From Gemmatimonas sp. (GTDB lineage: Bacteria; Gemmatimonadota; Gemmatimonadetes; Gemmatimonadales; Gemmatimonadaceae), in the NCBI GenBank assembly GCA_011390885.1, contig JAABRO010000062.1:62001-126000 (forward strand): a DNA stretch of 64,000 nt. The letters are read 5' to 3'. How positions within the stretch are numbered: the first letter of the stretch is position 1; each line of letters opens with the position of its first letter. Below, one piece after another: positions 405 through 64,000 of the stretch. Under the pieces are notes generated by a model. The model had not been told where the DNA came from. It did not search any database and saw only the letters and a program-made list of their open reading frames with translations. Both the position numbers and the translations under genes were made by a program.

Positions 405-809
405 TCAGTCCGGCAGCACCGCCGTAACCTCCAGCTCCACGACCGCACCGGGCTCCACGAGTCCCGCCACCTGCACCGCGCTCATCGCGGGGTAGTGTCG
501 TCCCATGAGGTCGCGGTACACCTGCCCGATCTCGCGCCCCGACGCGCGATACGCGGCGAGGTCGGTGAGGTACCAGGTGAGGCGCACCACGTGCTCCGGG
601 CCTGCGCCTGCTTCTGCGAGCACGGCCAGCGCGTTGCGCAGCGCCTGTGCCGTCTGCTCCACGACACCGGGCCCCACCAGCCGCTGCTCGGCATCCCACC
701 CGATCTGACCGGCCACGAACAGCTGCGTGCCACGCGCGGCCATGCCGTTCGCGTAGCCGCGCGGCGGCGGCCAGCCGGCCGGCTGCAGGATCCGGTGGGG
801 CGTGCTCAT
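405..809 (-). CDS. RidA/YjgF-family protein of the aminobenzoyl-CoA operon
   Basis: 134 aa, the normal length of the RidA (YjgF/UK114) family. RidA proteins hydrolyse reactive enamine/imine intermediates, releasing ammonia. It is the last gene of the operon, and its ATG overlaps the stop of the CoA ligase by 4 nt (806-809), indicating translational coupling. The Arg that binds the substrate carboxylate in classical RidA (the R of a P-A-R motif) is Met here, in the [10 protein letters not shown] segment near residue 108. It is therefore probably not a general 2-aminoacrylate deaminase. A role in deamination or hydrolysis of the non-aromatic amino-CoA intermediate is inferred from position only. 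RidA-like proteins are known from the Azoarcus evansii 2-aminobenzoate clusters. Confidence 0.85.
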
Positions 810-2476
810 GCATCCTCCCGCAGGCGATAACGCTGCAGCTTGCCGGTGTCGGTCTTCGGCAGCGCCGCCACGAAGGCGACGAGCCGCGGGTACTTGTACG
901 GGGCGATCGTGGCCTTCACGTGGTCCTGCAGCGCGCGCACGAGCGCGTCCGACGGATCGTAGCCGGGGCGCAGCACCACGAACGCCTTCACGGCCTGCCC
1001 GCGCTCCTCGTCGGGCACGCCCACGACAGCGCACTCGGCCACCGCTTCGTGCGCGAGCACGGCCGCCTCCACCTCCGGCGCGCCGATGTTGTAGCCGCTC
1101 GAGATGATCAGGTCGTCCGTGCGCGCCTTGAAGTACACGTAACCGTCCGCGTCCATCACGGCGGCGTCCCCGGTGAGGTTCCAGCCCCGCTGCACGTAGG
1201 CGCGCTGCCGGTCGTCGGCGAGGTAGCGGCAACCCGTGGGGCCGCGCACCGCGAGGCGCCCCACCGTACCCGCCGGCACCGGCGCGAGCGCGTCATCGAG
1301 GATTGCCACCTCGTAGCCCGGCACCGCCCTGCCGATCGCCCCCGCGCGCACGTCGGCACCCGAGGCGGCGATGAAGATGTGGATGAGCTCCGTGGCCCCG
1401 ATGCCGTCGAGCATCTCGACACCCGTGGTCTCGCGCCAGAGCGTGCGCGTGGCATCGGGCAGCGCCTCGCCCGCCGACACGGACTGCCGCAGCGACGACG
1501 TGTCGAACGCGCCCGGCCGCTGCTGCAGCACGATCCCCATGTGCCGGTAGAACGTGGGTGCGGTGCAGGTGATCGTGGCGCGCGTGGCCGCGATCGCACC
1601 GAGCAGCTGCTCCGGCGTCACTTTCTCCACCAGCACCGTGGAGCCGCGCACCGCCATCGGGAAGCAGAGCAGCCCGCCCAGCCCGAAGGTGAACGCGAGT
1701 GGCGGCGTGCCAATGCACCGGTCGTCGCGGCCGATGCGCAGCACCTGCTTCGCGAAGCCGTCGCACATGATGAGCACGTCACGATGGAAGTGCAGGCATC
1801 CCTTGGGCTCGCCCGTCGTGCCGCTCGTGAACGCGATGAGGCACACGTCGTCCTGCGAGGTGGCCACCGCCGTGAACGGTGCGTCGTGCATCGTCATGCG
1901 CGCGTCGAGGTCGGCCGGGTGGTCACCGCCCCACGACAGCATCGCCACCGGCGGCGCATGCGCGCCCCGCTCGGCGTTCACCGCATGCACCGCCGTCTCG
2001 AGCTCGTCAGCGAGGCGCGCGTCGGTGAGCGCGTGGCTCACGCGTGCCTTGCGCATCACGACCGCCAGCTCCACCGCGCGCAGCATGGGCATGGTGGTGA
2101 CCGCGATCGCGCCGGCCTTGAGCACGGCGAACCACGCCGCCGCGAGCCGCGGACCGTTGTAGCCACGCAGCAGCACGCGCGTCCCGGGGCGCACGCCGTC
2201 GGCCACGAGCACATGCGCGATCGCATCGGCGTCACGCTGCAGCGCCGCGTACGTGACCTCGCGCCAGCCCCCGGCGCCATCGGGGCTCACGATCGCGACG
2301 CGATCGCCGTCGCCGTCCGCGACGGCGCGGTCGAGCAGCACCTCGGCGGCGTTGCAGCGCGGCGGGTACACATACGGCGGCTCGAGGCGCAGCACCGGCC
2401 ACTCGTGCGGCGGCGGCAGGTGATCGCGCGCGAACGAATCGGCGTGCGCGCTGGGCAGCAGCGACGGCGCACTCAT
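806..2476 (-). CDS. abmG: 2-aminobenzoate-CoA ligase-like acyl-CoA synthetase
   Basis: 556 aa ANL-superfamily (AMP-dependent) acyl-CoA ligase. It has the P-loop-like [12 protein letters not shown] motif near residues 235-246, a [12 protein letters not shown]5-type motif, a [19 protein letters not shown] segment (A8 hinge) and the C-terminal Lys in [11 protein letters not shown] (A10). The family makes acyl-adenylates and then aryl-CoA thioesters; benzoate-type ligases have this length. The call as 2-aminobenzoate (anthranilate) CoA ligase rests mainly on the fused monooxygenase/reductase gene in the same operon; a salicylate or related ligase is the main alternative. It lies 51 nt behind the acyl-CoA dehydrogenase gene and overlaps the RidA-like gene by 4 nt. 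Confidence 0.78.
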
Positions 2477-2527
2477 GGCCGGCGGCCCGACATGGCGAAC
2501 GTCCGCGTGATCACGCGCATGCCTGGC

Positions 2528-3733
2528 TCACTCCACGGTGCGGCGGGCCGCCTTCACGGCCTCGCGTCCGATGATGAGGCGCTGCACCTCACTGGCCCCC
2601 TCGTAGATGCGCAGCGCGCGAATCTCGCGGTACAGCCGTTCCACCACCTGTCCCTGCTGCACCCCGCGACCGCCGTGCATCTGCACGGCCTGGTCGATGA
2701 TGCGCTGCGCACCCTCGGTCGCCGCCAGCTTCGCCATGGCCGCCTCGCTCGTCGCGCGCGGGTCACCCGCGACATCGCGCTGCCACGCTGCACGCGCCGT
2801 GAGCAGCGCCGCGCCATCGAACTCCGTGCACAGGTCACCGAGCGTGGCCTGCGTGAGGGGCAGCTCCGACATGCTCGCACCGAACAGCTGGCGCGTGGTG
2901 ACATGGGCGAGCGCCTCGTCGAGGGCGCGGCGCGCGAAGCCGAGCGCTGCGGCCGCGACCGACGTGCGGAAGATGTCGAGCGTGCGCATCGCCAGCTTGA
3001 ACCCGTCGCCCTCGGGCCCCAGCCGGTGGCTATCGGGTACCCAGCACCCCTCGAATCGCAGCGTGGCCAGCGGATGCGGCGCGATGACGTCGAGCCGCTC
3101 GGCGATGACGAGACCGGGCGTGTCGGCCGGCACGAGGAACGCGCTCATGCCGCGCGCGCCGGTGGACGCGGCGTCACTGCGCGCGATCACGCAGTAGAAA
3201 TCGGCGATGCCGCCATTCGAGATCCACGTCTTGGTGCCGTCGAGCACCCACGCCTCGCCGTCGCGGCGCGCGCTCGTGCTGAGCGCGCCGACATCCGAAC
3301 CCGCATCGGGCTCCGAGAGCGCGAACGCGGCAATCGCCTCCCCACGCGACACGCGCGGCAGCCACGCGTCGCGCAGCGCGTCGCTTCCCGCGAGCATGAG
3401 CGGCCCCGAGCCGAGTCCCTGCATCGCGAAGGCGAAGTCGACGAGACCGTCGTGCCAGGCGAGCACCTCGCGAACCACGCACAGCGACCGGCTGTCGAGC
3501 ACCTCGCGTTCGCCGCCCCACGCGCGCGGCACCGCGTGGCGCAGCCACCCCGCCTCGCCCAGGCGCGCAACCCACGTGCGTGTGGCGGCATCGGCGTCGT
3601 GATGATCGACCGGCGGCTGCGCGGTACACCAGGCATCGAGCTCGCGAGCGAGCGCGCGATGTTCGTCGTCGAAGAACGGCAGCGCGAGGCGACGCGCGAA
3701 GGCCCGTGCGGTGCCGCGCGACCGTGTGCTCAC
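2528..3733 (-). CDS. Acyl-CoA dehydrogenase family protein
   Basis: 401 aa, a full-length acyl-CoA dehydrogenase with N-terminal helical domain, middle beta domain ([15 protein letters not shown] and [14 protein letters not shown], near residues 145 and 175) and C-terminal helical domain. The C-terminal [15 protein letters not shown] carries the Glu usually acting as catalytic base. These FAD enzymes introduce the alpha-beta double bond in acyl-CoAs, passing electrons to ETF. Start is GTG at 3733, one nucleotide after the stop of the upstream hydratase gene. In this operon it likely acts on the reduced, ring-opened or alicyclic CoA ester made after the monooxygenase/reductase step; the exact substrate is inference. 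Confidence 0.88.
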
Positions 3734-3734
3734 G

Positions 3735-4583
3735 TCAGTTGCCCTCGAACACGGGCGTGGTCCTCGCCGCGAACGCCTCGAAGGCGCGGCGGAAGTCGGC
3801 GGTCTGCATGCACAGCGCCTGCGCCTGCGCCTCCATCTCGATCGCCTGCTCCACCGACACGCTCCACTCCTGCTGCAGCATGGTCTTGGTCATGGCGTGT
3901 GCGAACGTGGGCCCCTTGGCGAGCGTCGTCGCGAGCGCGATGGCCTCGCCTTCGAGCGCGTCGGCGGACACGAGCCGGTTGAAGAAGCCCCACCGCTCCC
4001 CCTCCTCGGCACTCATGCTGCGGCCGGTGTAGAGCAGCTCGGCGGCGCGCCCCTGCCCGATGAGGCGCGGCAGGATGGCGCAGGCGCCCATGTCGCAGCC
4101 GGCCAGCCCCACGCGCGTGAACAGGAACGCCGTGCGCGCCGCCGGCGTAGCGAGCCGCAGGTCGGACGCCATGGCGAGAATGGCCCCCGCACCGGCCGCC
4201 ACGCCATCGACGGCGGCGATGATCGGCTGCGGACAGGCGCGCATGGCCTTCACGAGGTCGCCCGTGAGGCGGGTGAAGGCCAGCAGCTCCGGCGTGGCCA
4301 TGCGCGTGAGCGGCTCGATGATCTCGAACACGTCGCCGCCCGAGCAGAAGTTCCCACCGGCGCCGGTGAGCACGACGGCGCGCACATCCTCCGCGTACAC
4401 GAGGTCGCGAAAGAGGTCGCGCAGCTCCGCGTACGACGCGAAGGTGAGCGGGTTCTTGCGCTCGGGGCGATCGAGGGTGATCACGGCCACCGCGCCGTGC
4501 GCCTCGGTGCGCCAGCGCACGTGCACGGGCGTGCGCTCGGCCATGCGCGTGCGCATGGCGGTCATCGCGTCGGGCGGGGTCAC
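3735..4583 (-). CDS. Enoyl-CoA hydratase/isomerase family protein
   Basis: 282 aa crotonase-fold protein. It contains the oxyanion-hole segments [17 protein letters not shown] (near residue 95) and [19 protein letters not shown] (near residue 145), which polarise the CoA thioester carbonyl. Crotonases hydrate, isomerise or hydrolytically open CoA esters. Its ATG overlaps the stop of the MarR gene by 4 nt (4580-4583) and its stop nearly abuts the acyl-CoA dehydrogenase start, so it is clearly co-transcribed. The probable role is hydration or ring opening in the beta-oxidation-like lower part of the pathway. Confidence 0.88.
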
Positions 4584-5044
4584 GGTGAATCCTCCAGGTG
4601 GGCGACGTGCTGCTTGAGCGTGCCGAGATGCACGGCGAGCGCCTCACGCGCAGCCACCGGCATCCCGGCGAAGAGTTCGGCCACCCACTGCTCGTGCGCG
4701 CGCGCCATCTCGGCGAAGTGCGCGCGACCACGCGGCGTGAGGCGCACCACGATGCCGCGTCCGTCGTGCGTGGCCCGCGTGCGCGAGACGAGCCCCTCGC
4801 GCACGAGCGATGTCACGAGCCAGGTCACGTTGCCGTTCGTCACGAGCAGCCGGTCGGCGAGTTCGGTCATGCGCAGTCCGGCGGGCGCGCGGTCGAGCTG
4901 GGCCAGCAGGTCGAAGCGCGGCAGCGTGCTGCCGAAGTCGCGCTTGAGCGACGCGGCGAGCCGGCGCTCGATGCGCGCGCTCGTGGACACGAGCCGCAGC
5001 CAGAGTCGGAGCGCGTCCTGCGCGGGAGCAGCGACGTCAGCCAA
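4580..5044 (-). CDS. MarR-family transcriptional regulator
   Basis: 154 aa with a central winged helix-turn-helix (about residues 35-110), including [19 protein letters not shown] as recognition region and [14 protein letters not shown] as wing. MarR dimers usually repress a divergent or own operon and release DNA when an aromatic acid or its CoA ester binds. It is encoded inside the operon, overlapping the SDR gene by 8 nt and the hydratase by 4 nt, so it would be autoregulated together with the catabolic genes. The likely target is the 8257-8517 intergenic region, but I found no clear operator there. The ligand is inferred to be the aromatic acid or its CoA thioester. Confidence 0.88.
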
Positions 5045-5804
5045 GTTCGCCTCCGGCCACCGCGATGGCCTGCCCCGTGATCGCCGACGCTCCCGTGCTA
5101 CACAACCAGCGCACCGCGTCGGCCACCTCGTCGGGGCGCACGAGGCGTCCTTGCGGGTTCGACGCGGTCAGCGCGGCGACGGCCTGCTCCTCCGTGCGCC
5201 CCGTGGTGCGCACGATGCGCGCGACGCTGTCGGCCACGAGGTCGGTGTCGGTGAAGCCGGGGCAGACCGCGTTCACGGTGACGCCGCTCGCCGCCGTCTC
5301 GCGCGCGAGCGCACGCACGAGCCCCACCACCGCATGCTTGGCCGCCACGTACGCCGTCACGTACGGATAGCCCGTCAGCCCGGCGGTGCTGGCCACCATC
5401 ACCACGCGACCGGAACGCGCGGACACCATCGCCGGCAGCACGGCCTGCGTCACGTGCACCGCGCCCATCAGGTTCACGTCGAGCATGCGCTGCCAGAGCG
5501 ACGCATCGCTCTTCGCGAACGACGCACTCTCGGCGGCCCCCGCGTTGTTCACGGCCATGGTGACGGGACCGAAGGCCTGCACGGCCTCCGCGACCGCCTC
5601 GCGCACCGCGTCTGCATCGGTCACGGACGCGACCACGACCTGGGCGCGCCCCGGGAGCGCGGCGGCCGCCTGCTCGCCTGCGGCGCGATCACGGACGAGC
5701 AGCGTGACGTCGGCGCCGGCGACGGACAGCGTGTGTGCAATGGCCGCGCCGATGCCACGGTTCGCGCCGGTGACCAGCGCGTGCGAGCCCACGAGCGTGC
5801 TCAC
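5037..5804 (-). CDS. Short-chain dehydrogenase/reductase (3-hydroxyacyl-CoA dehydrogenase-like)
   Basis: 255 aa if the GTG at 5804 is the start; this gives the normal SDR length and places the TGANRGIG NAD(P)-binding motif at residues 12-19. NNAG lies near residue 86, and the catalytic Ser139-Tyr152-xxx-Lys156 triad is intact. Classical SDRs of this size oxidise hydroxyacyl-CoA or alcohol substrates with NAD(P). It sits 46 nt downstream of the monooxygenase/reductase gene and overlaps the MarR gene. In the aminobenzoyl-CoA setting it most likely oxidises the 3-hydroxyacyl-CoA made by the hydratase. Confidence 0.85.
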   Translation of the reverse strand: MSTLVGSHALVTGANRGIGAAIAHTLSVAGADVTLLVRDRAAGEQAAAALPGRAQVVVASVTDADAVREAVAEAVQAFGPVTMAVNNAGAAESASFAKSDASLWQRMLDVNLMGAVHVTQAVLPAMVSARSGRVVMVASTAGLTGYPYVTAYVAAKHAVVGLVRALARETAASGVTVNAVCPGFTDTDLVADSVARIVRTTGRTEEQAVAALTASNPQGRLVRPDEVADAVRWLCSTGASAITGQAIAVAGGELG

Positions 5805-5850
5805 CGCGCACCGCCTCGCGCATGATCGCGCGCCGAGCGCTTCGGCCCGC

Positions 5851-8256
<2,406 letters not shown>

Positions 8257-25295: not shown

Positions 25296-26708
25296 ATGGC
25301 CCCGTTCCGCACCTCGGTCGCCGTCGGTACCGCCCTGCTGTGCCTCGCCACCCTGCAGCCATGCGCGCCGCTGCACGCGCAGCCCGCCGACCAGTGGCGC
25401 GGGTTTCCCGCCAGTCCCCCGCCCCTCCCCACGCTGCGGCCCGGGGAGATCCAGCTGCGCTACCTGGGCAACGCCGGTTGGGAGATCACCGACGGGCGCA
25501 CCGTGGTGCTCGTGGACCCGTTCCTCACGCAGTTCGCGCGGTGGGCGGAGAACGGCCCGGATGCAACACCCGACTACGGCGACCTGTACCCGGCCGACAC
25601 GGCGCGCATCAACCAGTACATCGGCCGCGCCGACTACATCGTGATCACCCACGGACACTCGGATCACGCGCTCGATGCGGGGTACATCGCGCGACGCACC
25701 GGCGCCGTGGTGCTCGGCCACGAAACGGCCGCCAACCTGGCGCGCGCGTACGGGGTGCCCGACAGCTCGCTCATCACGGTGCTCGGCGGGGAGGACTACG
25801 CCTTCGACGACGGCATTTCCATTCGCGTGGTGCCGAACATCCACAGTGCGCTCGACGACAAGCGGTACTTCAACAATGGACGCGGCATTGCCGGCACCGC
25901 GCCGCGCGGTCTCAAGGCACCGCTCCGCCGCGTGGACTATCAGGAGGGCGGCAACCTGGCCTACATCATCCGCATTGGCGGGCACGAGGTGCTGGCCATG
26001 GGCTCCATGAACTACCTGGAGCGCGAGATGGAAGGGCTGCGTCCGGACGTGGCGCTCATCGGTGCCAACAGCCAGCGGCTGGAGATCTTCGACTACACCG
26101 GCCGCCTCCTGCGCGCGATGGGATATCCCCCGGTGGTGATCCCCACGCACGCCGACGGCTACGGCAATCCGCGCCCCAATGCCGCGGCACTGTCCGACCG
26201 CGACCGCTTCCGCGCCGAGGTGGCGGCCGTCTCACCGAACAGCCGCTTCATCCAGCCCACCTGGTTCGAGCCCATCGTGCTGCCCGCGCGCGCCACGCTG
26301 GTCGCCGGCGGTGCTGCGGGAGGCGAACGACGCCAGATCAACCCGCCGGGCATCTCGCCGCTCGTGCCCGCGTACTCCGTGGGCATGGCCACCGGCAACG
26401 ATGTGTTCGTCTCGGGGATGACGGGCTTCAAGCCGGGCACGCAGGACATCGTCGAAGGGGGCATCGCGGCGCAGACGCGGCAGACGCTCGAGAACATCCG
26501 CACCACGCTCGAGGCCGCCGGCGCCACCATGGCCGACGTGGTCGAGTGCACCGTGTTCCTGCGCGACATGGCCGACTACGCCGCGATGAACCGGGTGTAC
26601 CTGGAGTTCTTCCCCACCGACCCCCCGGCTCGCGCCACGCTCGCCGTGTCGGCGCTGCCGCGACCGGCGGCGCTGGTGGAGATCAAGTGCAGCGCGCGGC
26701 GGCGGTAG
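25296..26708 (+). CDS. Exported metallo-beta-lactamase-fold protein fused to a RidA domain
   Basis: 470 aa. A signal peptide (residues 1-29, ...PLHAQ) is followed by an UlaG-like metallo-beta-lactamase fold (about 50-335), with THGHSDH at 118-124, a further metal-type His183 in NIHSALDD and His285 in THADGYGNP. A linker leads to a complete RidA/YjgF domain (about 352-469): VFVSGMTGFKPGTQD, LEAAGATMADVVECTVFLRD and PPARATL, which keeps the Arg (446) that binds the substrate carboxylate. One uninterrupted frame covers both. A hydrolase paired with an imine/enamine deaminase in the periplasm is unusual. The chemistry is not known; a two-step amide or lactam/enamine breakdown is only a guess. Confidence 0.85.
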   Translation: MAPFRTSVAVGTALLCLATLQPCAPLHAQPADQWRGFPASPPPLPTLRPGEIQLRYLGNAGWEITDGRTVVLVDPFLTQFARWAENGPDATPDYGDLYPADTARINQYIGRADYIVITHGHSDHALDAGYIARRTGAVVLGHETAANLARAYGVPDSSLITVLGGEDYAFDDGISIRVVPNIHSALDDKRYFNNGRGIAGTAPRGLKAPLRRVDYQEGGNLAYIIRIGGHEVLAMGSMNYLEREMEGLRPDVALIGANSQRLEIFDYTGRLLRAMGYPPVVIPTHADGYGNPRPNAAALSDRDRFRAEVAAVSPNSRFIQPTWFEPIVLPARATLVAGGAAGGERRQINPPGISPLVPAYSVGMATGNDVFVSGMTGFKPGTQDIVEGGIAAQTRQTLENIRTTLEAAGATMADVVECTVFLRDMADYAAMNRVYLEFFPTDPPARATLAVSALPRPAALVEIKCSARRR

Positions 26709-54588: not shown

Positions 54589-57500
54589 TCAGGGCGTCGC
54601 GAGCGCCTCCGTCACCGCGGTCGGCAGCAAGCCGAAGGCCGCGGACGCGAGGTTGAGCGACGTGCTCGGACTGCCGTCGGGATTCCACACATCCACCTCC
54701 GTGAACGCGCCCGCTGCCGTGGTGGCCTCGGGCACCGGCGGACGCAGCCGCTCGGCGGCCAGACGGCCGAATCCACCACGCGCGACCAGCGCGCGCGCCG
54801 CGGCCACGAGGTCGGCCGGATCGTCGGGCACCTCGGCGAGCGAGACACCGAGCCGGTCGGCGCACAGCTGTCGCCGGAAGGCGAGGAGCTCCTGCGGCCG
54901 GCCGTTCTCCAGCCGGTCGTCGAACACCGACACCGCGTACGAGCTGTCGTACGACAGGCCGCGCCGCCAGAGGTGCGTGGTCCCCACCATCGCCCATGCA
55001 TCGTCCACGATCACCGTGGTGGTGGCCAGCTTGAGCGTACGCGCCGGCCCCGCCGACGGAGAGATCACGGCCACGCGCGCGGCCCGTGTCTCGGCGCCCA
55101 GCCGGTCGAGCGCTGCACGGGTCACCTGGTCGCGAATGCGCTGATACGCCTTCGGAATGCCCGCGTCGAAGAAGACGGGCACGCAGGCCAGCACGCGCAG
55201 CCCCGGGCGCTCCGTCATGCGCGTGAAGAGGGTGTCGAGCAGATGCACGCGGTCGTCCGTCTCGCCGAACGCGAGGTCGTCGAGCGCCGGCGTCTCGAGG
55301 TAGATGAAGTCCTCGGCCCGCTCGATGGCGCGCACGAGCGCCGTCGCCCCCTCGCGCGCCCCTTTCGCGGCGGCGAGGAAGCGGCGGTCGAGCGCGCGCG
55401 CGATGCGGTCGGCGCTGTCGCTGATACCCGCCGGAATCGTGATGCCGGTGCCGCTGAGCGCCGAGCGGATGCTCGCCAGCCCCTCGCCGAACGGGTAGCC
55501 GCTGCCGCCCACGAGCGCCGCGAGCTCGCTGAGCCCCACCTCGGCCTCCATGCCGGCGGCCACGGTGCGCAGGCCGGCCACCCAGAGGCTGTCGGCGGCG
55601 GGCGCCGTGGGCACGGCGAGGTCGCCGGCCTCCACGGTGGTGGCAAGGTCGATCGTGCTCGTGGCCACGCGGTCGCGCACGTACTCGGCAACCCCGCGCA
55701 CGGCAGGTCCCTCCACGCGGGCGCCCACGGCAATCACATCGGGGCCCGCCGGACAGAGCGGGTGTCCATTGTGGTGCGGCAGGAGCCCGTGCCGGTCGCC
55801 AAGCGCGGGTCCACCGCCCACCGCGGCGCGCGAGGCACCGGCCGCCGTGGCCGCCACCACCAGTTCGCGTCGCTCGAGCCCGGGGAACGGCTGACCGGCG
55901 GCCCAGGCGTTGGGGAGCGTGCGCGGCGTGCGCCGCACCGTCGCACCGGTGGCGGCGAGCGGCGCGTCGCCGTCGCCGGTGGGCGCGCCCTTGAAGGCGG
56001 GCGGGGTGAGGCGAAGGGTGAGCGTGGCGCTCGCGGCCGCAGCGAAGGTGCCGAGGGCGCGCATGACCGCCGTGATCGTGGCCGGGTCCACCAGCGTGAG
56101 GCTGCCGCCACCGAGCGCGACCACCTGCGTGCCGGAGGCGATGTTCGCGCCGGCGCCGAGCGTGGCGACCTCGCGCCCCTCCTCGCAGAGCAGGAACGGG
56201 CCGGCGGCACTCGCGGCGCTGGCCACCGTGCCGCCTACCGGCGCCGGCCGGTCGAAGCGCTGGTCGGCGAAGAACCGCTGCCCGCGCGCCGTGACCACCA
56301 GCACGCTCACGCCCATGGGCGTCTCCGGGGTCGCGTCCCCGTCGGCGAGCGGTGCGACCACCCGGGCCACGCCGCTGGCGTCGGCCAGCCCGGCACCACC
56401 GTCGAGCTGGTACCGCGTGCCGGTGGTGTGGTTGAAGCCCTGCGTCCAGCAGCGTACCCACGCACCGGCCGCCTCCGTGCCAAGCTCCACGGTGAAGAGC
56501 ACGCGCTGGCCGGCCACCGTGCCGCCGACCTCCGCACCGCCCCCCACGAGGGCGGCGGCGGTGAGGGTGATCGACGCCGGCACCGGCACGTCGGGGAGGG
56601 CGCCGCCGAGCGGCCCCCAGTCGAGGGACACGGCCGAGGCGGCGAGGCGCGACGGAACCGCGGCGCCCCCGTCCTGCAGGCGCAGCGCCTCGAGCGCGGT
56701 CGTGGCGACATCGTCGGTGGTGCGGAGCAGGCAGGGGCGCGTGGCCCGATCCACGAGCTGGCGCGTGGTGGCCCGCTCCTGGTCGGCGGCGCGCCGCTGC
56801 GCGGGGGCGGCCGCCGCGCCGTCAGCGTGCCGCGGCTGCCCGGTGAGATGATGCTCGATGCTCAGCACCGCCACGCACACGTGGTCGCGCTGCAGGATGG
56901 GGTCCACCGGGCCGTCGGCGAACAGCGACACCGTGTCGCCGAAACGGCCGTCGGGGAGCACGGCCATGCGAGGGATCGGCAGGTCGTCGGGCGCGCCGGA
57001 GGGCGCCGCCGAAAAGGCCAGGTCGAGCGCCCCGGAGCCGGAGCCACGAAATCGGTTCGCTCCTGAACCATCAGCGTTTCCGCTCACCGCGACCCGCGCC
57101 AACTCCTCGGCCGTCAGCGCGCCGCCGAATGCGTTCACGAGCTGCACGGACAGCCGGTCCGCCCCGGACGCAACCGGGGCGGTGCGCGTGTCCACGCCTT
57201 CCGCGAACAACTCCTCGAAGCCGTTGTCGGCGTGCGTGGCGAGGTAGCGCCACCAGCAGGCCACCGCGCCGGGGTCCACGGCGTGCCCGCGCTGGTCGAA
57301 GGCCCACAGGCGCACCGAGGTGCTGGTGGGAAACTTGAGCAGGAACTGCGACTCGCCGCCGGTCACGCCGGGGCGGAACGGGTCGCGCATGGGCGCGGCG
57401 CCGTTGGCGAGCGCGCCACCGTCGGCGGCGAGGCCCAGGTAGGTGAGTTTCTTCTCGTCGGTGTCGACGGTGGCTGGAAACGGGAACGGGAGTCGTCCGT

Positions 57501-57921
57501 CAAACCACGACACATCAGAAACAGCATCGACAATCTCGAGAGCCAGTGATCGTACGATTGGCCTCGTCGCCCGGTTCGTGACCGATGGCGCACCGAGCGT
57601 TGGAATGGCACGCATGAGCGCCCCGAGCCGCTCCGAGGCCTGCGGGAGCAGTTCGTACACCGCCACCAGGCGGTCGTCGGTGAAGGCCAGGCCGTCGGGT
57701 CCGCGCAGGTGGGCGAGCCCCAGCGGACGCGGATCGGTGGCCATGTAGAACGAGAGGATCCCGGCCACGGGCGGCCGCCACTCGACGTCGCCGTCGAGGG
57801 TGAGGGGGACCGCGAAATCGGCCTCAGGGAGAGGCAGCTGCACCGTGTCCGCCGAGAACCACGGACCGAGCACCGGGCTGTGCAGCCCGAGGCTGCGGGG
57901 GGAGGGCGTGAGGGTGATCAT
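54589..57921 (-). CDS. Giant beta-rich protein with degenerate phospholipase-D-like C-terminal domain
   Basis: 1110 aa from the ATG at 57921, 5 nt behind the previous gene. No signal peptide or membrane helix is seen. The first part (1 to about 860) is rich in beta strands with many ADG/GDG turns and no family I recognise. From about residue 866 (IERAEDFIYLETPALDDLAF) it follows the phospholipase D superfamily. The HKD-type region reads ATTTVIVDDAWAMVGTTH (966-983), and SYDSSYAVSVFDD follows. The usual His and Lys of HxKxxxxD are Ala and Thr, and the Asn of GSxN is His, so catalysis is unlikely. It is the third gene of a three-gene operon of giant proteins. Function unknown. Confidence 0.88.
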   Translation of the reverse strand: MITLTPSPRSLGLHSPVLGPWFSADTVQLPLPEADFAVPLTLDGDVEWRPPVAGILSFYMATDPRPLGLAHLRGPDGLAFTDDRLVAVYELLPQASERLGALMRAIPTLGAPSVTNRATRPIVRSLALEIVDAVSDVSWFDGRLPFPFPATVDTDEKKLTYLGLAADGGALANGAAPMRDPFRPGVTGGESQFLLKFPTSTSVRLWAFDQRGHAVDPGAVACWWRYLATHADNGFEELFAEGVDTRTAPVASGADRLSVQLVNAFGGALTAEELARVAVSGNADGSGANRFRGSGSGALDLAFSAAPSGAPDDLPIPRMAVLPDGRFGDTVSLFADGPVDPILQRDHVCVAVLSIEHHLTGQPRHADGAAAAPAQRRAADQERATTRQLVDRATRPCLLRTTDDVATTALEALRLQDGGAAVPSRLAASAVSLDWGPLGGALPDVPVPASITLTAAALVGGGAEVGGTVAGQRVLFTVELGTEAAGAWVRCWTQGFNHTTGTRYQLDGGAGLADASGVARVVAPLADGDATPETPMGVSVLVVTARGQRFFADQRFDRPAPVGGTVASAASAAGPFLLCEEGREVATLGAGANIASGTQVVALGGGSLTLVDPATITAVMRALGTFAAAASATLTLRLTPPAFKGAPTGDGDAPLAATGATVRRTPRTLPNAWAAGQPFPGLERRELVVAATAAGASRAAVGGGPALGDRHGLLPHHNGHPLCPAGPDVIAVGARVEGPAVRGVAEYVRDRVATSTIDLATTVEAGDLAVPTAPAADSLWVAGLRTVAAGMEAEVGLSELAALVGGSGYPFGEGLASIRSALSGTGITIPAGISDSADRIARALDRRFLAAAKGAREGATALVRAIERAEDFIYLETPALDDLAFGETDDRVHLLDTLFTRMTERPGLRVLACVPVFFDAGIPKAYQRIRDQVTRAALDRLGAETRAARVAVISPSAGPARTLKLATTTVIVDDAWAMVGTTHLWRRGLSYDSSYAVSVFDDRLENGRPQELLAFRRQLCADRLGVSLAEVPDDPADLVAAARALVARGGFGRLAAERLRPPVPEATTAAGAFTEVDVWNPDGSPSTSLNLASAAFGLLPTAVTEALATP

Positions 57922-57926
57922 CGCCG

Positions 57927-60900
57927 TCAGCTCCGGGTCACGGGGGTGGAGGGCGCGCTCAGGCGACCGCCGGGATCGAGGGTCACGACGCGCCAGCTCG
58001 TGCCGACCGGCGGGTCTTCGCCCACGGCATCGATCAGGCGGAAGGTGCGCGCCACACCGCTGCCGATGGACGCCGTCGGGTCGTCGGCCAGCACCGTGCC
58101 TACCCGGCTCTCTCGGCCACCCGGCAGGCGCCGGTACACGTCGAACCGGTATCCGCCCATGGCACCACGGCGCAAAATCTCTGTATGCTGCCAGGTTACT
58201 GTCGCGTTGGCGCCGCTCACAGCAAGCGTGAGACCGATAGGCGCGGCCGGCGGATCGGGCGGGATGAATGCCGAACTGACTGGGCCACTCGCCGGACTCC
58301 ATTCACCCGGGAGCGTGGTGCCGGGGGGCGAGGGGGCCTGCACCTCCACCCGCCAGGCCATGCGCGTCCACGGCGGAAGCGCACCGTCCGCGAACCGGTC
58401 GGTGCCGGCGTCCACCAGCTCGAACACCTGTGGCCCGTCCGTGGCGGGATCGCTCGCCGGGTCGACCGGCGGCACGTCGCCCTCGGCCACGATCGGCATC
58501 CGCAGCGGATCCGAATCGGCCACGCTCCGGCGCAGCCGGTACCGGGCCGCCGGCTGCGGACCGCGCACCACCGTCACCGACAGACGAGCGGCTCCGGTGT
58601 CGGTGAAGCCGGCGAAGTCGAGCAGTGGCCGCGGTGGCGGACCGCCCGAGGGCACCGCCACCGGCAGCAATGTGGCAGCGGTGAAGTCGCTTTCCACATT
58701 CTGGGCACTGAGCGCCACGATCTTGAAGAAGGCGAGCACGCGCAGCGAGCCGGACAGGTCGTGCGCGTAGCGCAGGTCGGTGCCTGCCAGCGGCTCCGCG
58801 GTGAGGTTGGTGAACAGGTCGCGCGTGAACACGGCCGCGTGCGCCGGGTCGCTCCAGACGGCACCGCGGTGCGCGGCGTCGGGCGCCGCGTCCACGGCGG
58901 CCACCACGGCGGCCACCGCGGCGTTGCCCGCCGCGCCCCGCTCGGCGAGCGCCGAACGCAGACGCGTCTCGTCGGTGGTGTACACGCGGTAGCGCGCGTT
59001 CGGCGTGCCGGTCCAAGTGAGCACCACGCGCGCGCGCCCCACGGCGTCGGGGCGCGCGCTGTAGCGCAGCGTGGGGTCGAGCACGACCGCGGCCGGCGGA
59101 CGCGGGTCGACCAGGTCGCGGCGCACCACCTCGCACGGGTCACCGTAACCATTGGCGTCGTACCACTGCGCGTCGAGCTTCGCCTCCACGCTGCCGGCGC
59201 GCGCGATTACACCCGCTGGCGGCGTGATCGTGATGGCGAACTTCGGCGCGAACACGGCCGGCAGCGCGACCTCCTCGCTCACACTGAGCCCGCCCACCGT
59301 GCCGGACACGCGCGCGCCGAGCAGTGGCAGGCTGCCGGCCGCGAGGTCGTCCACGCGCGGCACGGTGAGCACGGCGCGCAGCGCGCCGAAGCGTGGCGCA
59401 TCGTCGAGCGGTGCAGCGTTGGCGAGGTCGTATTCGAGCGACATCACCGGCGTGGGCGGCTTCGTGCGCGCCTTCGCCCCCACGGCGCGGGTGCCCCAGT
59501 CGCTCCAGCGCCCCCACCAGTCGGCCTGCGCGATGCGATAGGTCACCGCATCGGGCGGCGCGACGCCATCGGCGAAGCGTCCGGTGCCGGTCTCGGTGGC
59601 TCCGTCGGGCACGGTGGGCACCAGCGCGAGCGCGCGTCCCGTGTCGTCGTGTCGCTCGTTGAGGCCGGTGAGGCGGCCACCGCTCTCGCGCGCCACCGCC
59701 AGCGTGGGCGCCGCGGTGAGCCGGGTCAGCGGTATCGTGATCTCGCGCAGCGCGGCCGGCGGCAGCACGTCGGCCACCCACGTGCCGAGCGCGTCGCCGG
59801 TGGGGAGCGCCTGCGTGGTGCCCGTGGCGCCCACCTGCTCTTCGGGGAGCAGCGGCGCGCCGAGCAGCGGCGGCAGCGGACGCGACGGCGGCGCCCCGCG
59901 AAACACCAGCACGGGCACCGTGAAGTCGAACACGGGCAGTCCGTCGGCGGAGCGGTGCGGCACATCGAACGGGAGCCCGGGCACCGCACGCGGCGCGCTC
60001 AGCCACCCGCCGGACAGCGCCAGCGAGAGCACCTGCGACACGTCGAGCACCGAGAAGTCCACCGCCACGAAGCCGCGAATGAAGTACAACTCGTACGGCA
60101 GCGATGACGGCGGCGACGGGTCCACGTCCATGAAGCCGAGCCAGCGCGCCATGCCGGGGTCGGCGGTGGCGGAGAGCACGGCGTTCAGGCTGCTCACGTC
60201 GGCGGTGGCCACGGTGGCACCGGCCGTGACGCCCTCGTCGAGCGGTACGGTGAGGCCGAGCGCGGGGGGACGCGCACTGAGGTCGACGAGCACGTGGTCG
60301 AGGTGCGGCGCGATCTCCCGCGCGAGCGGCTCGACGCGCGTCCACTCGTCGTCGTCGGTGGCGGGCGGCGCGGCGGCGGCCGAGGCCACGGTGGGATCGT
60401 CGTGCAGCCCCAGGCGCCGCGGCGCACCGCGGCGCACCCGCTTCTCGGCGCGCACCTTCGCGTCGGGCAGGCCGAGGTAGCGCGGGGCCGCTTCGTACGG
60501 CAGGTCGAGCACGTTCACCGGCTTGAACTCGAGCACCGAGCGCACGTTGGCGGGCACCCACGCTGCCGCGCGCACGATGCCCTGCCCCGAGATCACGATG
60601 CCGTCGATGTGCGAGCCGGTGAGTGTGTACGGTGACGCCGAGCGCTCGCCGATGGTGCGGCGTCCCTCGGAGGTGTCGATGTACGCGGACACGACGAGCG
60701 CCTCCTTGCCCGTCACGATCGTGGGCTCGCGGCGCGTGAGCACCGGCGGCTGGCGATCGCGTCCGCCCTGCACGTGCACCGCGATCGCGACCTCGCCCGC
60801 GTTGCGCAGCAGGTGCCCGGTGACCGGGTTGTCGGGGGTGACGGCGAAGGGCAGCGTGAGCACGCGCCCGAAGGAATCCACCCACGCGATGTCGGTGCGC

Positions 60901-61085
60901 GCGTTGCCGGTCACGAGTCCCTGCGCAACGGTTTCCGGCACGCGGTACACGAGGAACGGGCACACCGGCAGCCCGATCTCGGGCGCGACGTACACGCGCA
61001 GGTGGATGCCGTCGGTGAGGTGAGGATCACCGGCACCGTCGATGCCGGCGGCACCCATGGCCCAGCGTGGAGGCAACGCGCTCAT
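57927..61085 (-). CDS. Giant beta-rich protein with C-terminal fibronectin-III-like domain
   Basis: 1052 aa from the ATG at 61085, which overlaps the upstream stop by 4 nt. No signal peptide. Many beta-strand segments are spread over the length; the last part (about 945-1050) is fibronectin type III-like (DPPAAPIGLTLAVSGANATV, TWQHTEILRRGAMGGYRFDV, FRLIDAVGEDPPVGTSWRVV). An earlier region LTWTGTPNARYRVYTTDETR also looks FN3-like, which suggests repeated sandwich domains. No enzymatic motif is seen. Translational coupling to both neighbours (4-nt overlap and 5-nt gap) argues for a complex of the three products. Confidence 0.88.
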   Translation of the reverse strand: MSALPPRWAMGAAGIDGAGDPHLTDGIHLRVYVAPEIGLPVCPFLVYRVPETVAQGLVTGNARTDIAWVDSFGRVLTLPFAVTPDNPVTGHLLRNAGEVAIAVHVQGGRDRQPPVLTRREPTIVTGKEALVVSAYIDTSEGRRTIGERSASPYTLTGSHIDGIVISGQGIVRAAAWVPANVRSVLEFKPVNVLDLPYEAAPRYLGLPDAKVRAEKRVRRGAPRRLGLHDDPTVASAAAAPPATDDDEWTRVEPLAREIAPHLDHVLVDLSARPPALGLTVPLDEGVTAGATVATADVSSLNAVLSATADPGMARWLGFMDVDPSPPSSLPYELYFIRGFVAVDFSVLDVSQVLSLALSGGWLSAPRAVPGLPFDVPHRSADGLPVFDFTVPVLVFRGAPPSRPLPPLLGAPLLPEEQVGATGTTQALPTGDALGTWVADVLPPAALREITIPLTRLTAAPTLAVARESGGRLTGLNERHDDTGRALALVPTVPDGATETGTGRFADGVAPPDAVTYRIAQADWWGRWSDWGTRAVGAKARTKPPTPVMSLEYDLANAAPLDDAPRFGALRAVLTVPRVDDLAAGSLPLLGARVSGTVGGLSVSEEVALPAVFAPKFAITITPPAGVIARAGSVEAKLDAQWYDANGYGDPCEVVRRDLVDPRPPAAVVLDPTLRYSARPDAVGRARVVLTWTGTPNARYRVYTTDETRLRSALAERGAAGNAAVAAVVAAVDAAPDAAHRGAVWSDPAHAAVFTRDLFTNLTAEPLAGTDLRYAHDLSGSLRVLAFFKIVALSAQNVESDFTAATLLPVAVPSGGPPPRPLLDFAGFTDTGAARLSVTVVRGPQPAARYRLRRSVADSDPLRMPIVAEGDVPPVDPASDPATDGPQVFELVDAGTDRFADGALPPWTRMAWRVEVQAPSPPGTTLPGEWSPASGPVSSAFIPPDPPAAPIGLTLAVSGANATVTWQHTEILRRGAMGGYRFDVYRRLPGGRESRVGTVLADDPTASIGSGVARTFRLIDAVGEDPPVGTSWRVVTLDPGGRLSAPSTPVTRS

Positions 61086-64000
61086 GTCCGCTCCTGCGCA
61101 ACGACCAGCGGGATGGAGTTGATGCTGCGGGACGCGATGCGCGTCCCGACCGGTTCGGTGAGGCGCAACTGCAGCGTGGCCAGGTCGGGCACCGCGATGC
61201 CGGGCGATGCTGCGAGCAGCACGCGCGTGGCCGACACGTTCGAGCGCACCGGCACGAGCGTGGACGGCTCGGGCGCGGGAATGCCCGGAATGCTCGCGTC
61301 GAGAATCGCGAGGCGCGGCGGGTTGCTGACCGGATCGACGAGCCGCGGCGCGCGCAGCAGCGCTTCGTCGCTGTCGAGCAGCAGTCCCACCAGGCGCCAC
61401 TCGGTGCCCACCTCCTGCCAGAGCGCGACAGTGCGCGGGCCGGTGGCCGGTGCGAACGGGTCGAGCCCGAGCGCCGACAGCGCCGCGTCGAGCAGCTCGT
61501 CGTCGGCCAGCCGTTCGTCGGTGGGCGGCGCGGCGGCCACGAGCACGTCGAGTGGATAGAACGGATTCGGCGTGGTGAAGCCGAAGCCGGTGGCCTCGAT
61601 GAGCTCCGTCACATCGCGGTAGCGCGACGCGCGGAAGTGCGAGAGCCCGATGTCGATCGCGTCTCCGCCTCCGGTGGGCACGGCCTGCACCACGAGGTCG
61701 TAGCGCGCCTGCGGCACGAGATCGGCGCGCACCTGCAGCGTGGCACCGTCCACGGGCGCGGGTTCGAGACACGGCGGCGCTTCACTCTCGGGACGCAACG
61801 TGCCGGTCGCGGCCTGGATGAGGCGCTGGTCGGCGAGCGTGCGCAGCTCGAACGGCAGGCCACCCCATTCGAACGCCTCCAGCAGCGGGAAGATCGCCGG
61901 CACGTCACCCGACGGTGGCGTGGGCGGCGGATCGGTGCGCCGCACGATCACGCCGAGCGTGTAGCCGTAGCGATCGAGCAGGTCCTCGATCCACTCCACG
62001 TCGAACCACACGAGCAGGGGATCGTCGCGCAGGTGCGACGGCACCTCGGCCACCGGATCGAAGCCGCGCAGGTAGCGCGCGAGCGCGCGCGGATCGAACC
62101 GCTGCTGCTTCGCGTAATCGCGCAGCTCGGCGTCGGGGAGCGTGCCGTCGTCGGCCGTGAGGAAGTGGAAGCGTTGCTCGTGCGTGGTGACCGTCACGTC
62201 CGTGGGCGGTGCGCCGAAGTCGAGCGTGCTGGCCGGCGGTGGCGTCTCGGTGGACTCCGCACCCACCCACACCGCCGCGCGATACGACACCTGCACCACG
62301 TAGCGCGAGTCGGGATCGAGCAGGTGGTAGCGATCGATCGCGTTCGCGGCGACCGTCGCGTCGTTCCAGGCATCGCGCAGCTCGTCACGCGCGGTATCGT
62401 CGTTGTCGGCCGCCACGAGCGCGTCATGGCGAATGCCGCACACGCGCACGAGTCCGATGTCGAAGTACCGATACGGCAGCACCTGGAACGCCGTCCACGG
62501 CCCGGCGACGCGCGGACGGTAGCGCACGTACACGCACCCATGCCGTCCCTCCACTGCCACGTGCTCGACCGTGCCAGGCCACGCCTGCTCCTGTCCACCG
62601 ATCGTGCCGCGCACCAGCGGGAGCCCCAGGCGCGGCCGCTTGCGATCGACCGTCGCGTGTGAACCCGGCGCGAGCTCCGGTCCCTGCGCCGGCCCGAACA
62701 GCGACATGATGTGCTGCACGATCTCCGACTCGCCCGTGAACGTGTCCAGGTCGTAGCAGAAGCGGATGAGGTGTCCCACGCCCTCGGACAGCTGCACACG
62801 CACCGCGACGATGCCGGGCGCGCGCAGCTCGAGCGAGTGGATCGTGCCCGATCGGCCGCGGCTCATCACCTCCGCCACCACCTTGCCATCGTTGTCGAGG
62901 CCATACGCCGTGACGGCGTCGGCACTCATCGCGCCCACCTGCATCGACACGCGATCGGTCGCCACCGGCAGCAGCGCCTCGAGCGCGTCCTTCGTGAAGG
63001 TGAGCTCGTAGTTGCCGTCGGGCGCGCTGGCCACGGGGAACCGATCGGCCACGCCAAGTGCGCCGCGGCGCGTGCGGAAGCGCACCGTGCCCAGCGTGAT
63101 CTCACGACCGGGTGCGCGCTCGTACTGCTTGAGCGCCGACATGTCGAGGCACACCGTTTCGCGGCCGCCGATGTCCGGCACCGTGAGGCACACCGCGAGC
63201 AGCAGCTCCGGCTCCGACACCTCGGGCGCGAAGGTGCCCTTGATGCCCAGGCTCATCGCCGTCATCGAGGCACGCGTGTAGCGTGGCAGCCGCCACGCGT
63301 GCGTGAGCGCGACCGACTCGCCCGCCGGCGTGTACGGCGCCGGCAGCGCGCCGCGTACGCCGGGCTCGAAGGTGAGCCCGAAGGTGGGCGCGAGCGCGGC
63401 CAGCGCCGACACCGTGAACATGGGCGGCGCGCCTTCCACGCCGTCCACGAAGAAGTCGGGCGGGTACGGCGTCTGCCCGCTCGGCGGCGCAGCGAATCGC
63501 ACGCGTCCCTGCGCGAGGCGGGCGCCGGCCCCGCCGAGCACGCAGTAGCGCGAGGGACGCGGCGCCGGATCGCAGACGCGTCCGAGGTTGTCGGCGGGGT
63601 CGCTCGAGAGTCCGTCGCCGCCTTCGGTGTGCGCGCGCGCCCACGGCGCGGGGTCCCAGCGCAGCAGCGCGAGGTCCCACCCTTCGTGCGTGGAAGCCGG
63701 CGTGCTGCCGTCCTCGGGCACGGCGGGGCGGAAGGTGGGCATCCACCAGGTGGCCGGCCACGTCGTCGTGTCCACCGGTGTCTCGGTGCCGTTGCTGGCG
63801 ATCTGCCGCAGCTCCACGCCCTGCAGTTCGTAGAGGTAGCGCACGCGGTTCGTGCCCGACCAGTCCACGCCGCCCCATCCCTGCGATGGCGTCGGCACGA
63901 AGCCGGTGGTGGTGGCCGGAATGTTCGAGCGCACGCGATGCGCGAAGCGCAGCACGGGCACGGTGTCGGGCCACGCCGTGTGCGCGTCGCCAAGGCCGGC
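61082..64000 (-). CDS. Giant beta-rich protein, partial (5' end beyond the window)
   Basis: At least 972 aa. The frame stays open to the window edge through 64000, and the GTG at 63961 reads inside a continuing protein (...AHTAWPDTV before PVLRFAHRV), so the true start is probably outside the window. It has no known catalytic motif. Segments such as ARYLRGFDPVAEVPSHLRDD and VWFDVEWIEDLLDRYGYTLG suggest mixed helix and strand in the middle, and strand-rich ends. It is the first visible gene of the three-gene unit and overlaps the next gene by 4 nt. Confidence 0.85.
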   Translation of the reverse strand, partial: AGLGDAHTAWPDTVPVLRFAHRVRSNIPATTTGFVPTPSQGWGGVDWSGTNRVRYLYELQGVELRQIASNGTETPVDTTTWPATWWMPTFRPAVPEDGSTPASTHEGWDLALLRWDPAPWARAHTEGGDGLSSDPADNLGRVCDPAPRPSRYCVLGGAGARLAQGRVRFAAPPSGQTPYPPDFFVDGVEGAPPMFTVSALAALAPTFGLTFEPGVRGALPAPYTPAGESVALTHAWRLPRYTRASMTAMSLGIKGTFAPEVSEPELLLAVCLTVPDIGGRETVCLDMSALKQYERAPGREITLGTVRFRTRRGALGVADRFPVASAPDGNYELTFTKDALEALLPVATDRVSMQVGAMSADAVTAYGLDNDGKVVAEVMSRGRSGTIHSLELRAPGIVAVRVQLSEGVGHLIRFCYDLDTFTGESEIVQHIMSLFGPAQGPELAPGSHATVDRKRPRLGLPLVRGTIGGQEQAWPGTVEHVAVEGRHGCVYVRYRPRVAGPWTAFQVLPYRYFDIGLVRVCGIRHDALVAADNDDTARDELRDAWNDATVAANAIDRYHLLDPDSRYVVQVSYRAAVWVGAESTETPPPASTLDFGAPPTDVTVTTHEQRFHFLTADDGTLPDAELRDYAKQQRFDPRALARYLRGFDPVAEVPSHLRDDPLLVWFDVEWIEDLLDRYGYTLGVIVRRTDPPPTPPSGDVPAIFPLLEAFEWGGLPFELRTLADQRLIQAATGTLRPESEAPPCLEPAPVDGATLQVRADLVPQARYDLVVQAVPTGGGDAIDIGLSHFRASRYRDVTELIEATGFGFTTPNPFYPLDVLVAAAPPTDERLADDELLDAALSALGLDPFAPATGPRTVALWQEVGTEWRLVGLLLDSDEALLRAPRLVDPVSNPPRLAILDASIPGIPAPEPSTLVPVRSNVSATRVLLAASPGIAVPDLATLQLRLTEPVGTRIASRSINSIPLVVAQERT

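Follow-up and report, generated by a model that had tools for sequence, protein, structure and literature searches.

The window, the whole 64,000-nucleotide stretch of Gemmatimonas sp. DNA analysed here, encodes a protein in which an apparent signal peptide, a metallo-beta-lactamase (MBL) fold and a Rid domain follow one another, and this raises the question of what a Rid protein might do outside the cytosol when joined to a metallo-hydrolase. Rid proteins have mostly been studied as cytosolic guards of PLP enzymes. Each of the two folds is already known and it is their exported combination that appears to be new; no paper on an MBL-Rid fusion was found in the open-access literature searched, coverage of which was partial. 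The principal Rid survey (PMC4433059) uses none of the words 'lactamase', 'signal peptide' or 'periplasm' in its main text, and 'lactamase' is likewise absent from a survey of gene fusions (PMC4921024).

The fusion gene and its two predicted catalytic sites

The frame at 25296-26708 (+) begins with ATG at 25296, stops at 26706-26708 and contains no internal stop. The earlier note had claimed that an MBL fold and a complete RidA domain share one signal-peptide-bearing frame, that the former keeps a THGHSDH metal motif and that the latter keeps a carboxylate-binding Arg446, and each of these claims was borne out. Pfam analysis of 25296-26705 placed Lactamase_B_3 at residues 53-259 (E 1.9e-9), with Lactamase_B and Lactamase_B_2 likewise above gathering score, and Ribonuc_L-PSP at residues 359-467 (E 7.3e-32); the metal motif lies at residues 118-124 (H119, H121, D123, H124), R446 is at the position given, and the N-terminus (MAPFRTSVAVGTALLCLATLQPCAPLHA, followed by Q) has the appearance of a Sec signal peptide. 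Here and throughout, signal peptides and lipoboxes were judged by eye. The features of the gene are as follows.

25296..26708, + strand: MBL-RidA fusion gene, 470 aa, putatively exported (frame translation, Pfam, relatives)
25296..25379, + strand: Sec-type signal peptide, residues 1-28 (by eye; relatives have similar N-termini)
25452..26282, + strand: MBL-fold domain, UPF0173/UlaG-like, residues 53-329 (Pfam, structure models, fold searches)
25650..25667, + strand: HGHSDH metal motif, H119-H124 (H/H/D/H wherever a row of the 43 loci is ungapped)
25842..25844, + strand: H183, third metal-site histidine (43/43 rows)
26004..26006, + strand: S237, at the position of the UPF0173 bridging Asp (GSMN here, GDT there; alignment to 3x2y/3x2z)
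26148..26150, + strand: H285, last metal histidine (43/43 rows)
26283..26369, + strand: variable linker joining the MBL and Rid domains (site of the stop and new start in split relatives)
26370..26696, + strand: complete RidA-type domain, residues 359-467 (Pfam, PDB sequence matches, RutC fold match)
26631..26633, + strand: R446, putative carboxylate-binding Arg, with T448 two residues further (alignment)

Membership of the MBL superfamily is indicated by PF13483, PF00753 and PF12706, all above gathering score, together with HxHxDH. Metal ligands were assigned by alignment. Our alignment of 43 MBL loci showed that no row reaching H119, H121, D123, H124, H183 or H285 has lost them and that N239 is present in 43/43, while the bridging Asp (GD) of UPF0173 and typical dinuclear MBL hydrolases is missing from the family: the fourth-motif position, GDT in TM1162, holds Ser in 42 loci and Gly in one. 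Scores fell below the cut-off for the UPF0173 equivalog NF001911 (55.6 bits, or 57.7 for the domain alone, vs 144), subclass B3 NF033105 (14 bits vs 240) and the UlaG lactonase NF008688 (14.0 bits vs 306), and a general B3 model matched 16 of 24 relatives weakly, at E up to 0.01.

The structure model of the whole protein had a pLDDT of 73 and that of the MBL domain a pLDDT of 85 (pTM 0.88). Among the VIA matches listed, the predicted MBL domain was closest to TM1162 (3x2y; Z 22.9, rmsd 2.6, 215 residues, 24% identity), and Igni18 (Z 21.3, rmsd 3.3, 217 aligned) and 7e3w (Z 20.6, rmsd 3.1, 217 aligned) also appeared. No named beta-lactamase is among the 50 VIA matches listed, which does not imply absence, and the best 50 Foldseek matches include a single one, the B3 enzyme 7luu (rank 38). 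B3 lactamases bind their metals through HxHxDH and two further His, and their fourth motif has Ser rather than Asp or Cys. In the B3 enzyme L1 this is Ser221 (PMC10148155). As far as sequence allows, the MBL domain resembles UPF0173/UlaG in fold and yet resembles B3 lactamases in having Ser or Gly at the bridging-Asp position.

The Rid domain scored 110.4 bits against PF01042 (gathering 27.3), covering profile positions 10-119 of 121; it lies just below the cut-off for the RidA subfamily TIGR00004 (103.7 vs 106.25 bits) and below that for the RutC equivalog TIGR03610 (84.8 vs 169.1 bits). RutC (3v4d) was the only match to the Rid part of the model among the VIA matches listed (Z 19.0, rmsd 1.9, 125 residues, 38% identity). 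R446 aligns with the conserved Rid arginine (Arg105 of S. enterica RidA) that marks the imine-hydrolysing subfamilies (RidA, Rid1-3), and within the window's own clade of the MBL tree (clade A, below) an equivalent Arg is found in 22/22 non-gap rows, the 23rd row ending at a contig end. Across these 23 rows the Asn is retained in 23, the Glu in 22 (one cut) and the Tyr in 22 (Phe in one), and the T448 position holds Thr in 17 and Ala in five (one cut). In AtRidA the equivalent pair, R165 and T167, is described as binding pyruvate (PMC4960622). A PADLOC match to PD-T4-2_B was limited to the Rid part and was set aside.

Conserved neighbours of the fusion gene were not seen. Elsewhere in the window, a minus-strand cluster at 405-8256 encodes a cytosolic-looking Rid and a benzoate-CoA-ligase-like protein, alongside a bifunctional protein of the salicylyl-CoA 5-hydroxylase/OYE type that scored 1257 bits against NF006101, above its cut-off, and the cluster is probably devoted to aromatic-CoA degradation; three consecutive proteins of 970-1110 aa encoded at 54589-64000 (-) had no Pfam or PHROGs matches.

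Recurrence and separate origins of the pairing

A search of genome contigs returned 65 loci, among which L009-L025 match both parts at 65-77% identity; their hosts are Gemmatimonadota MAGs, one Sphingomonas record and one Sphingomonadales MAG. The match ends at contig ends in three of these (L018, L019, L022), and MBL and Rid are separate adjoining genes in four (L021, L023, L024, L025). The search for this architecture in other genomes that the earlier note had advised thus found the fusion again, in Gemmatimonadota contigs and two sphingomonad records, and because it recurs in separate assemblies we regard the fusion as real, neither chance nor frame error. An assembly or frame artefact fusing two genes is practically ruled out by that recurrence and by the frame without a stop, nothing having been found in its favour, although MBL and Rid do occur as separate genes in related genomes.

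The two sphingomonad sequences cluster on the MBL tree (support 100/99), and wide occurrence in the family of the Sphingomonas record was rejected, as only 1/298 of its genomes had an MBL match (E up to 1e-20). Plasmid spread was likewise rejected, with matches in only 6 of 72,556 plasmid records, all below 60% identity. An MBL relative on the Streptantibioticus cattleyicolor megaplasmid pSCAT (L140:7794-8825; 37.5%) was considered as a link to beta-lactam biosynthesis and discarded, the stretch being without Rid and showing no signs of a lactam cluster; the start of this protein looks twin-arginine-like, its fourth motif reads GTAN, and its gene adjoins one for a DmpA-type-aminopeptidase-like protein (by eye).

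Within Gemmatimonadota the MBL-domain query matched in 43/395 genomes (E up to 1e-10). The 43 MBL loci examined comprise the window, L104-L139, L009, L015, L018, L025, L017 and L019; of the 45 MBL places in the Gemmatimonadota search, the wider stretches fetched left out G153, G229, G302, G340, G370 and G032, while G336 and G358 probably correspond to L015 and L025. Gene calls came from a codon-bias script that missed some genes at some loci, and neighbours were instead counted from six-frame HMM scans; Pfam confirmed the domain names for L117, L118, L122, L104, L105, L126 and L111.

Rid lies in the same frame as MBL at 21/43 loci, as a C-terminal RidA in 18 and an N-terminal PF14588-type domain in three (L111, L117, L119), and is encoded by the next gene at a further seven, namely L124, L130, L131, L132 and L025, with 3x-Rid in L104 and L122. 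Rid is therefore fused or adjacent at 28/43 MBL loci vs 0/20 control stretches; six-frame scans detected no nearby Rid at the other 15. The controls, twenty 16-kb stretches from the same genomes, also lacked VCBS of this family above 100 bits (0/20) and gave one weak FG-GAP match (97 bits).

The neighbour search that the earlier note had also proposed was productive for the family, though not for the window gene itself: an FG-GAP/VCBS propeller often accompanies MBL as a third partner (20/43 loci), lying in the MBL frame at six, within 650 nt at 14 and absent at 23. Neither this partner nor the missing bridging Asp featured in the earlier note. Where Rid is also fused, the order is MBL-Rid-VCBS (L126, L136, L137, L015) or VCBS-MBL-Rid (L128, L129). 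The propeller was rejected as an obligate partner, given that 20/20 stretches around VCBS matches away from MBL had neither Rid nor MBL and that genera g70/g75 hold VCBS and 3x-Rid without the MBL. Two other settings of the propeller were observed: in the window's own genome (L143, start of contig C33) a same-family VCBS/FG-GAP is fused to Peptidase_M28 and PDZ and cut by the contig start, and at L105:3737-7138 it forms the C-terminus of a PQQ-dependent dehydrogenase-like protein whose gene is convergent with the MBL gene.

A tree of the MBL domain (41 rows, the partial L138 and L018 being left out) resolved three main clades, with L106 as a long single row. RidA is present throughout clade A, which includes the window (21/21; fused in 16, next gene in five); in clade B an exported 3x-Rid is the next gene in 2/8 rows, and the clade B genomes G085, G103 and G280 encode 3x-Rid, 64-66% identical, elsewhere; in clade C a PF14588-type Rid is fused at the N-terminus in 3/11. 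At least eight changes of state are required on this tree, and Rid has joined MBL in three separate ways on it: as a C-terminal RidA, as an N-terminal PF14588-type domain and as 3x-Rid next door. The order of gain and split within clade A, where many internal forks are open, is left unclaimed. For the clade C domain an identity as 'Rid7' was ruled out by the presence of the Arg, hence the term PF14588-type; all three retain both Arg and Glu (alignment read by eye).

Where the clade A Rid is a separate gene it has its own start signal by eye, lipobox-like in L124 and L130-L132 and a signal peptide in L025, and in L130-L132 the MBL stop and Rid start lie within a 4-nt overlap of the two genes. 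Signal-peptide-like starts (by eye) likewise open the 3x-Rid genes of L104 and L122; the third domain of the L104 protein lacks the Arg.

Exported Rid proteins elsewhere in Gemmatimonadota

The earlier note took RidA to be normally a stand-alone, intracellular deaminase. For this phylum that premise needs amending, as exported Rid proteins are common in Gemmatimonadota and so not unusual there. 3x-Rid was found in 36/395 genomes; among the 13 loci fetched, creatininase is the next gene in three (L226-L228, one genus) and an amidase is adjacent or near in five (L229, L230, L232, L233, L237; two genera). In L031 an exported Rid follows a gene for Peptidase_M19 (PF01244, E 1e-116) on the same strand, M19 being the family of dehydropeptidase I. 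Among the best 20 of 205 genomes matching the L031-type Rid, seven loci carry a same-strand M19 gene no more than about 1.5 kb away, these loci being top-scoring relatives and not a random draw. The same-strand pair, an M19 dipeptidase and a Rid that are both exported, was observed in L031, L239, L243, L244, L245, L247, L250 and L255, usually with a small protein between.

Creatininase, amidase and M19, searched with HMMs built from 1-4 sequences, were each found in 0/20 control stretches. They are also sparse around MBL (n=42; creatininase only two, amidase two, both distant, and a weak M19 in one) and around VCBS (n=20; creatininase one, amidase one). L122 combines VCBS and MBL with a 3x-Rid-Amidohydro_2 protein and has a creatininase-like gene nearby, and in L017 a creatininase is divergent from the MBL-Rid fusion.

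Two further Rid loci were observed in the window's own genome. In L003 (C11:97893-101477) the genes for an exported Rid and for a DAO-family FAD oxidoreductase, whose start looks twin-arginine-like, are divergent, likely an imine hydrolase and an imine maker both placed outside the cytosol. In L008 (C27) an aldo-keto-reductase-like protein carries a C-terminally fused Rid (by eye).

Proposed function, alternatives and known systems

The MBL and Rid parts very probably work on one route, because they are exported, the catalytic-site residues of both are conserved and separate pairings are repeated. That the same pairing was built several times in the phylum suggests a two-step reaction outside the cytosol, and since a hydrolase feeds Rid only if an enamine or imine is exposed, the bond cut would be the C-N bond of an enamide or similar. 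The earlier note had proposed just such a two-step breakdown of an extracellular compound; the results lend it support without settling it, its enamine/imine step drawing support from the Arg, Asn and Glu that are retained and from exported Rids elsewhere that adjoin amide or peptide hydrolases. These neighbours involve other Rid types in related genera and are therefore indirect, not independent counts.

It is quite possible, by analogy with RutB-RutC and from the residues retained, that the fusion joins an exported enamide hydrolase (MBL) to an enamine/imine deaminase (Rid); the reading stops short of certainty because 15/43 MBL loci lack a nearby Rid. The protein would be an exported, probably trimeric, two-step hydrolase. 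In the first step the MBL, whose presumed two-metal site has no bridging Asp, would cut a C-N bond whose nitrogen sits on a C=C bearing a carboxylate, candidate substrates being an N-acyl-dehydroamino acid, a ureido-acrylate or a lactam-like ring. In the second the freed enamine or imine carboxylate would be held by R446/T448 of Rid and hydrolysed to a keto compound and ammonia (or a ring-opened amine). The whole would be the counterpart, outside the cytosol, of the relay from RutB to RutC within it.

It is unlikely, though worth serious attention, that the two domains instead have separate jobs, with Rid quenching imines from other exported enzymes such as FAD amine oxidases, MBL hydrolysing an unrelated lactone or phosphoester and the fusion merely co-localising them. 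Rid genes are described as clustering with FAD amine oxidases (PMC4433059), another exported Rid of the window's own genome adjoins a DAO-family FAD oxidoreductase, and a lactonase and a structure with bound cAMP are among the UPF0173/UlaG relatives; however, the same MBL family is joined by different Rid types at either end or next door, and among the subset of neighbours scanned with Pfam an amine oxidase lies near an MBL locus only at L104. That Rid might be a non-catalytic scaffold, for trimerisation or ligand sensing, strikes us as distinctly improbable. Rid proteins do form trimers (PMC4960622) and the Arg-less third domain of the L104 partner would suit such a role, but every non-gap row of clade A retains N, R and E, together with Y or F, and a carboxylate-binding Arg would be dispensable for a mere scaffold.

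We consider it very unlikely that the fusion is a beta-lactamase-like enzyme, with lactams of carbapenem or cephem type opened at a B3-type site and the enamine or imine product cleared by Rid, even though carbapenem and cephem hydrolysis is reported to yield enamine/imine carboxylates (PMC10148155; PMC6754457) and the family has Ser at the B3 Ser221 position with weak B3 matches. The bit score is far below the B3 cut-off, the nearest folds among the matches listed are UPF0173 and UlaG, and neither a resistance nor a biosynthesis context was seen. Hardly any credence can be given to a secreted nuclease made of an RNase-J-like MBL and an L-PSP 'endoribonuclease': RNase J chains do occur among the structural matches (Z about 20) and the Rid family bears the old endoribonuclease name, but UPF0173 outscores RNase J, the Arg/Glu set indicates imine chemistry and the 282-aa MBL domain is too short for the beta-CASP part of RNase J.

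Returning to the enamide hydrolase-deaminase reading, the joining of an exported Rid to a metallo-hydrolase several times over, each time drawing on one of several Rid types, suggests a substrate that gives an extracellular enamine or imine. Were that substrate found, Rid chemistry would be seen to serve catabolism or detoxification in the envelope, an unassigned MBL clade with a lactamase-like metal site would gain a function, and there would be a means to trace environmental turnover of dehydroamino-acid compounds. The M19 and amidase genes that accompany other exported Rids fit the same enamide rule. A broader conjecture, which we regard as somewhat doubtful, is that Gemmatimonadota routinely run enamine/imine chemistry outside the cytosol, with exported Rids paired, through fusion or a shared operon, with exported amide or peptide hydrolases (B3-like MBL, M19, amidase, creatininase, Amidohydro_2) that strip dehydroamino-acid amides (dehydropeptides, or lactam antibiotics that give an enamine carboxylate once opened), the reactive product being deaminated on the spot and FG-GAP/VCBS being optional.

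The closest functional parallel is the E. coli rut operon of uracil catabolism, in which an amide-type hydrolase, RutB, releases the enamine 3-aminoacrylate and a Rid protein, RutC, deaminates it (PMC8113886). The window Rid nevertheless scores far below the RutC model cut-off. RutB belongs to a hydrolase family other than MBL, and RutB and RutC are separate cytosolic proteins. Compared with the RidA subfamily (TIGR00004), the window Rid is a whole domain with the Tyr/Asn/Arg/Thr/Glu set but is putatively exported, fused and just under cut-off. UPF0173/PRK00685 (TM1162, Igni18) provides the best fold matches for the MBL domain among those listed, although the Asp of GDT is replaced by Ser and the score is below cut-off, whereas B3 lactamases (L1) share HxHxDH, two His and the fourth-motif Ser with it, while its scores against B3 models are trivial. 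Finally, 3x-RidA (Niehaus 2015; PMC4433059) has three tandem Rid domains and is presumed to be a covalent trimer; exported versions adjoin MBL in L104 and L122, in contrast to the window protein, which has one Rid domain and one MBL domain.
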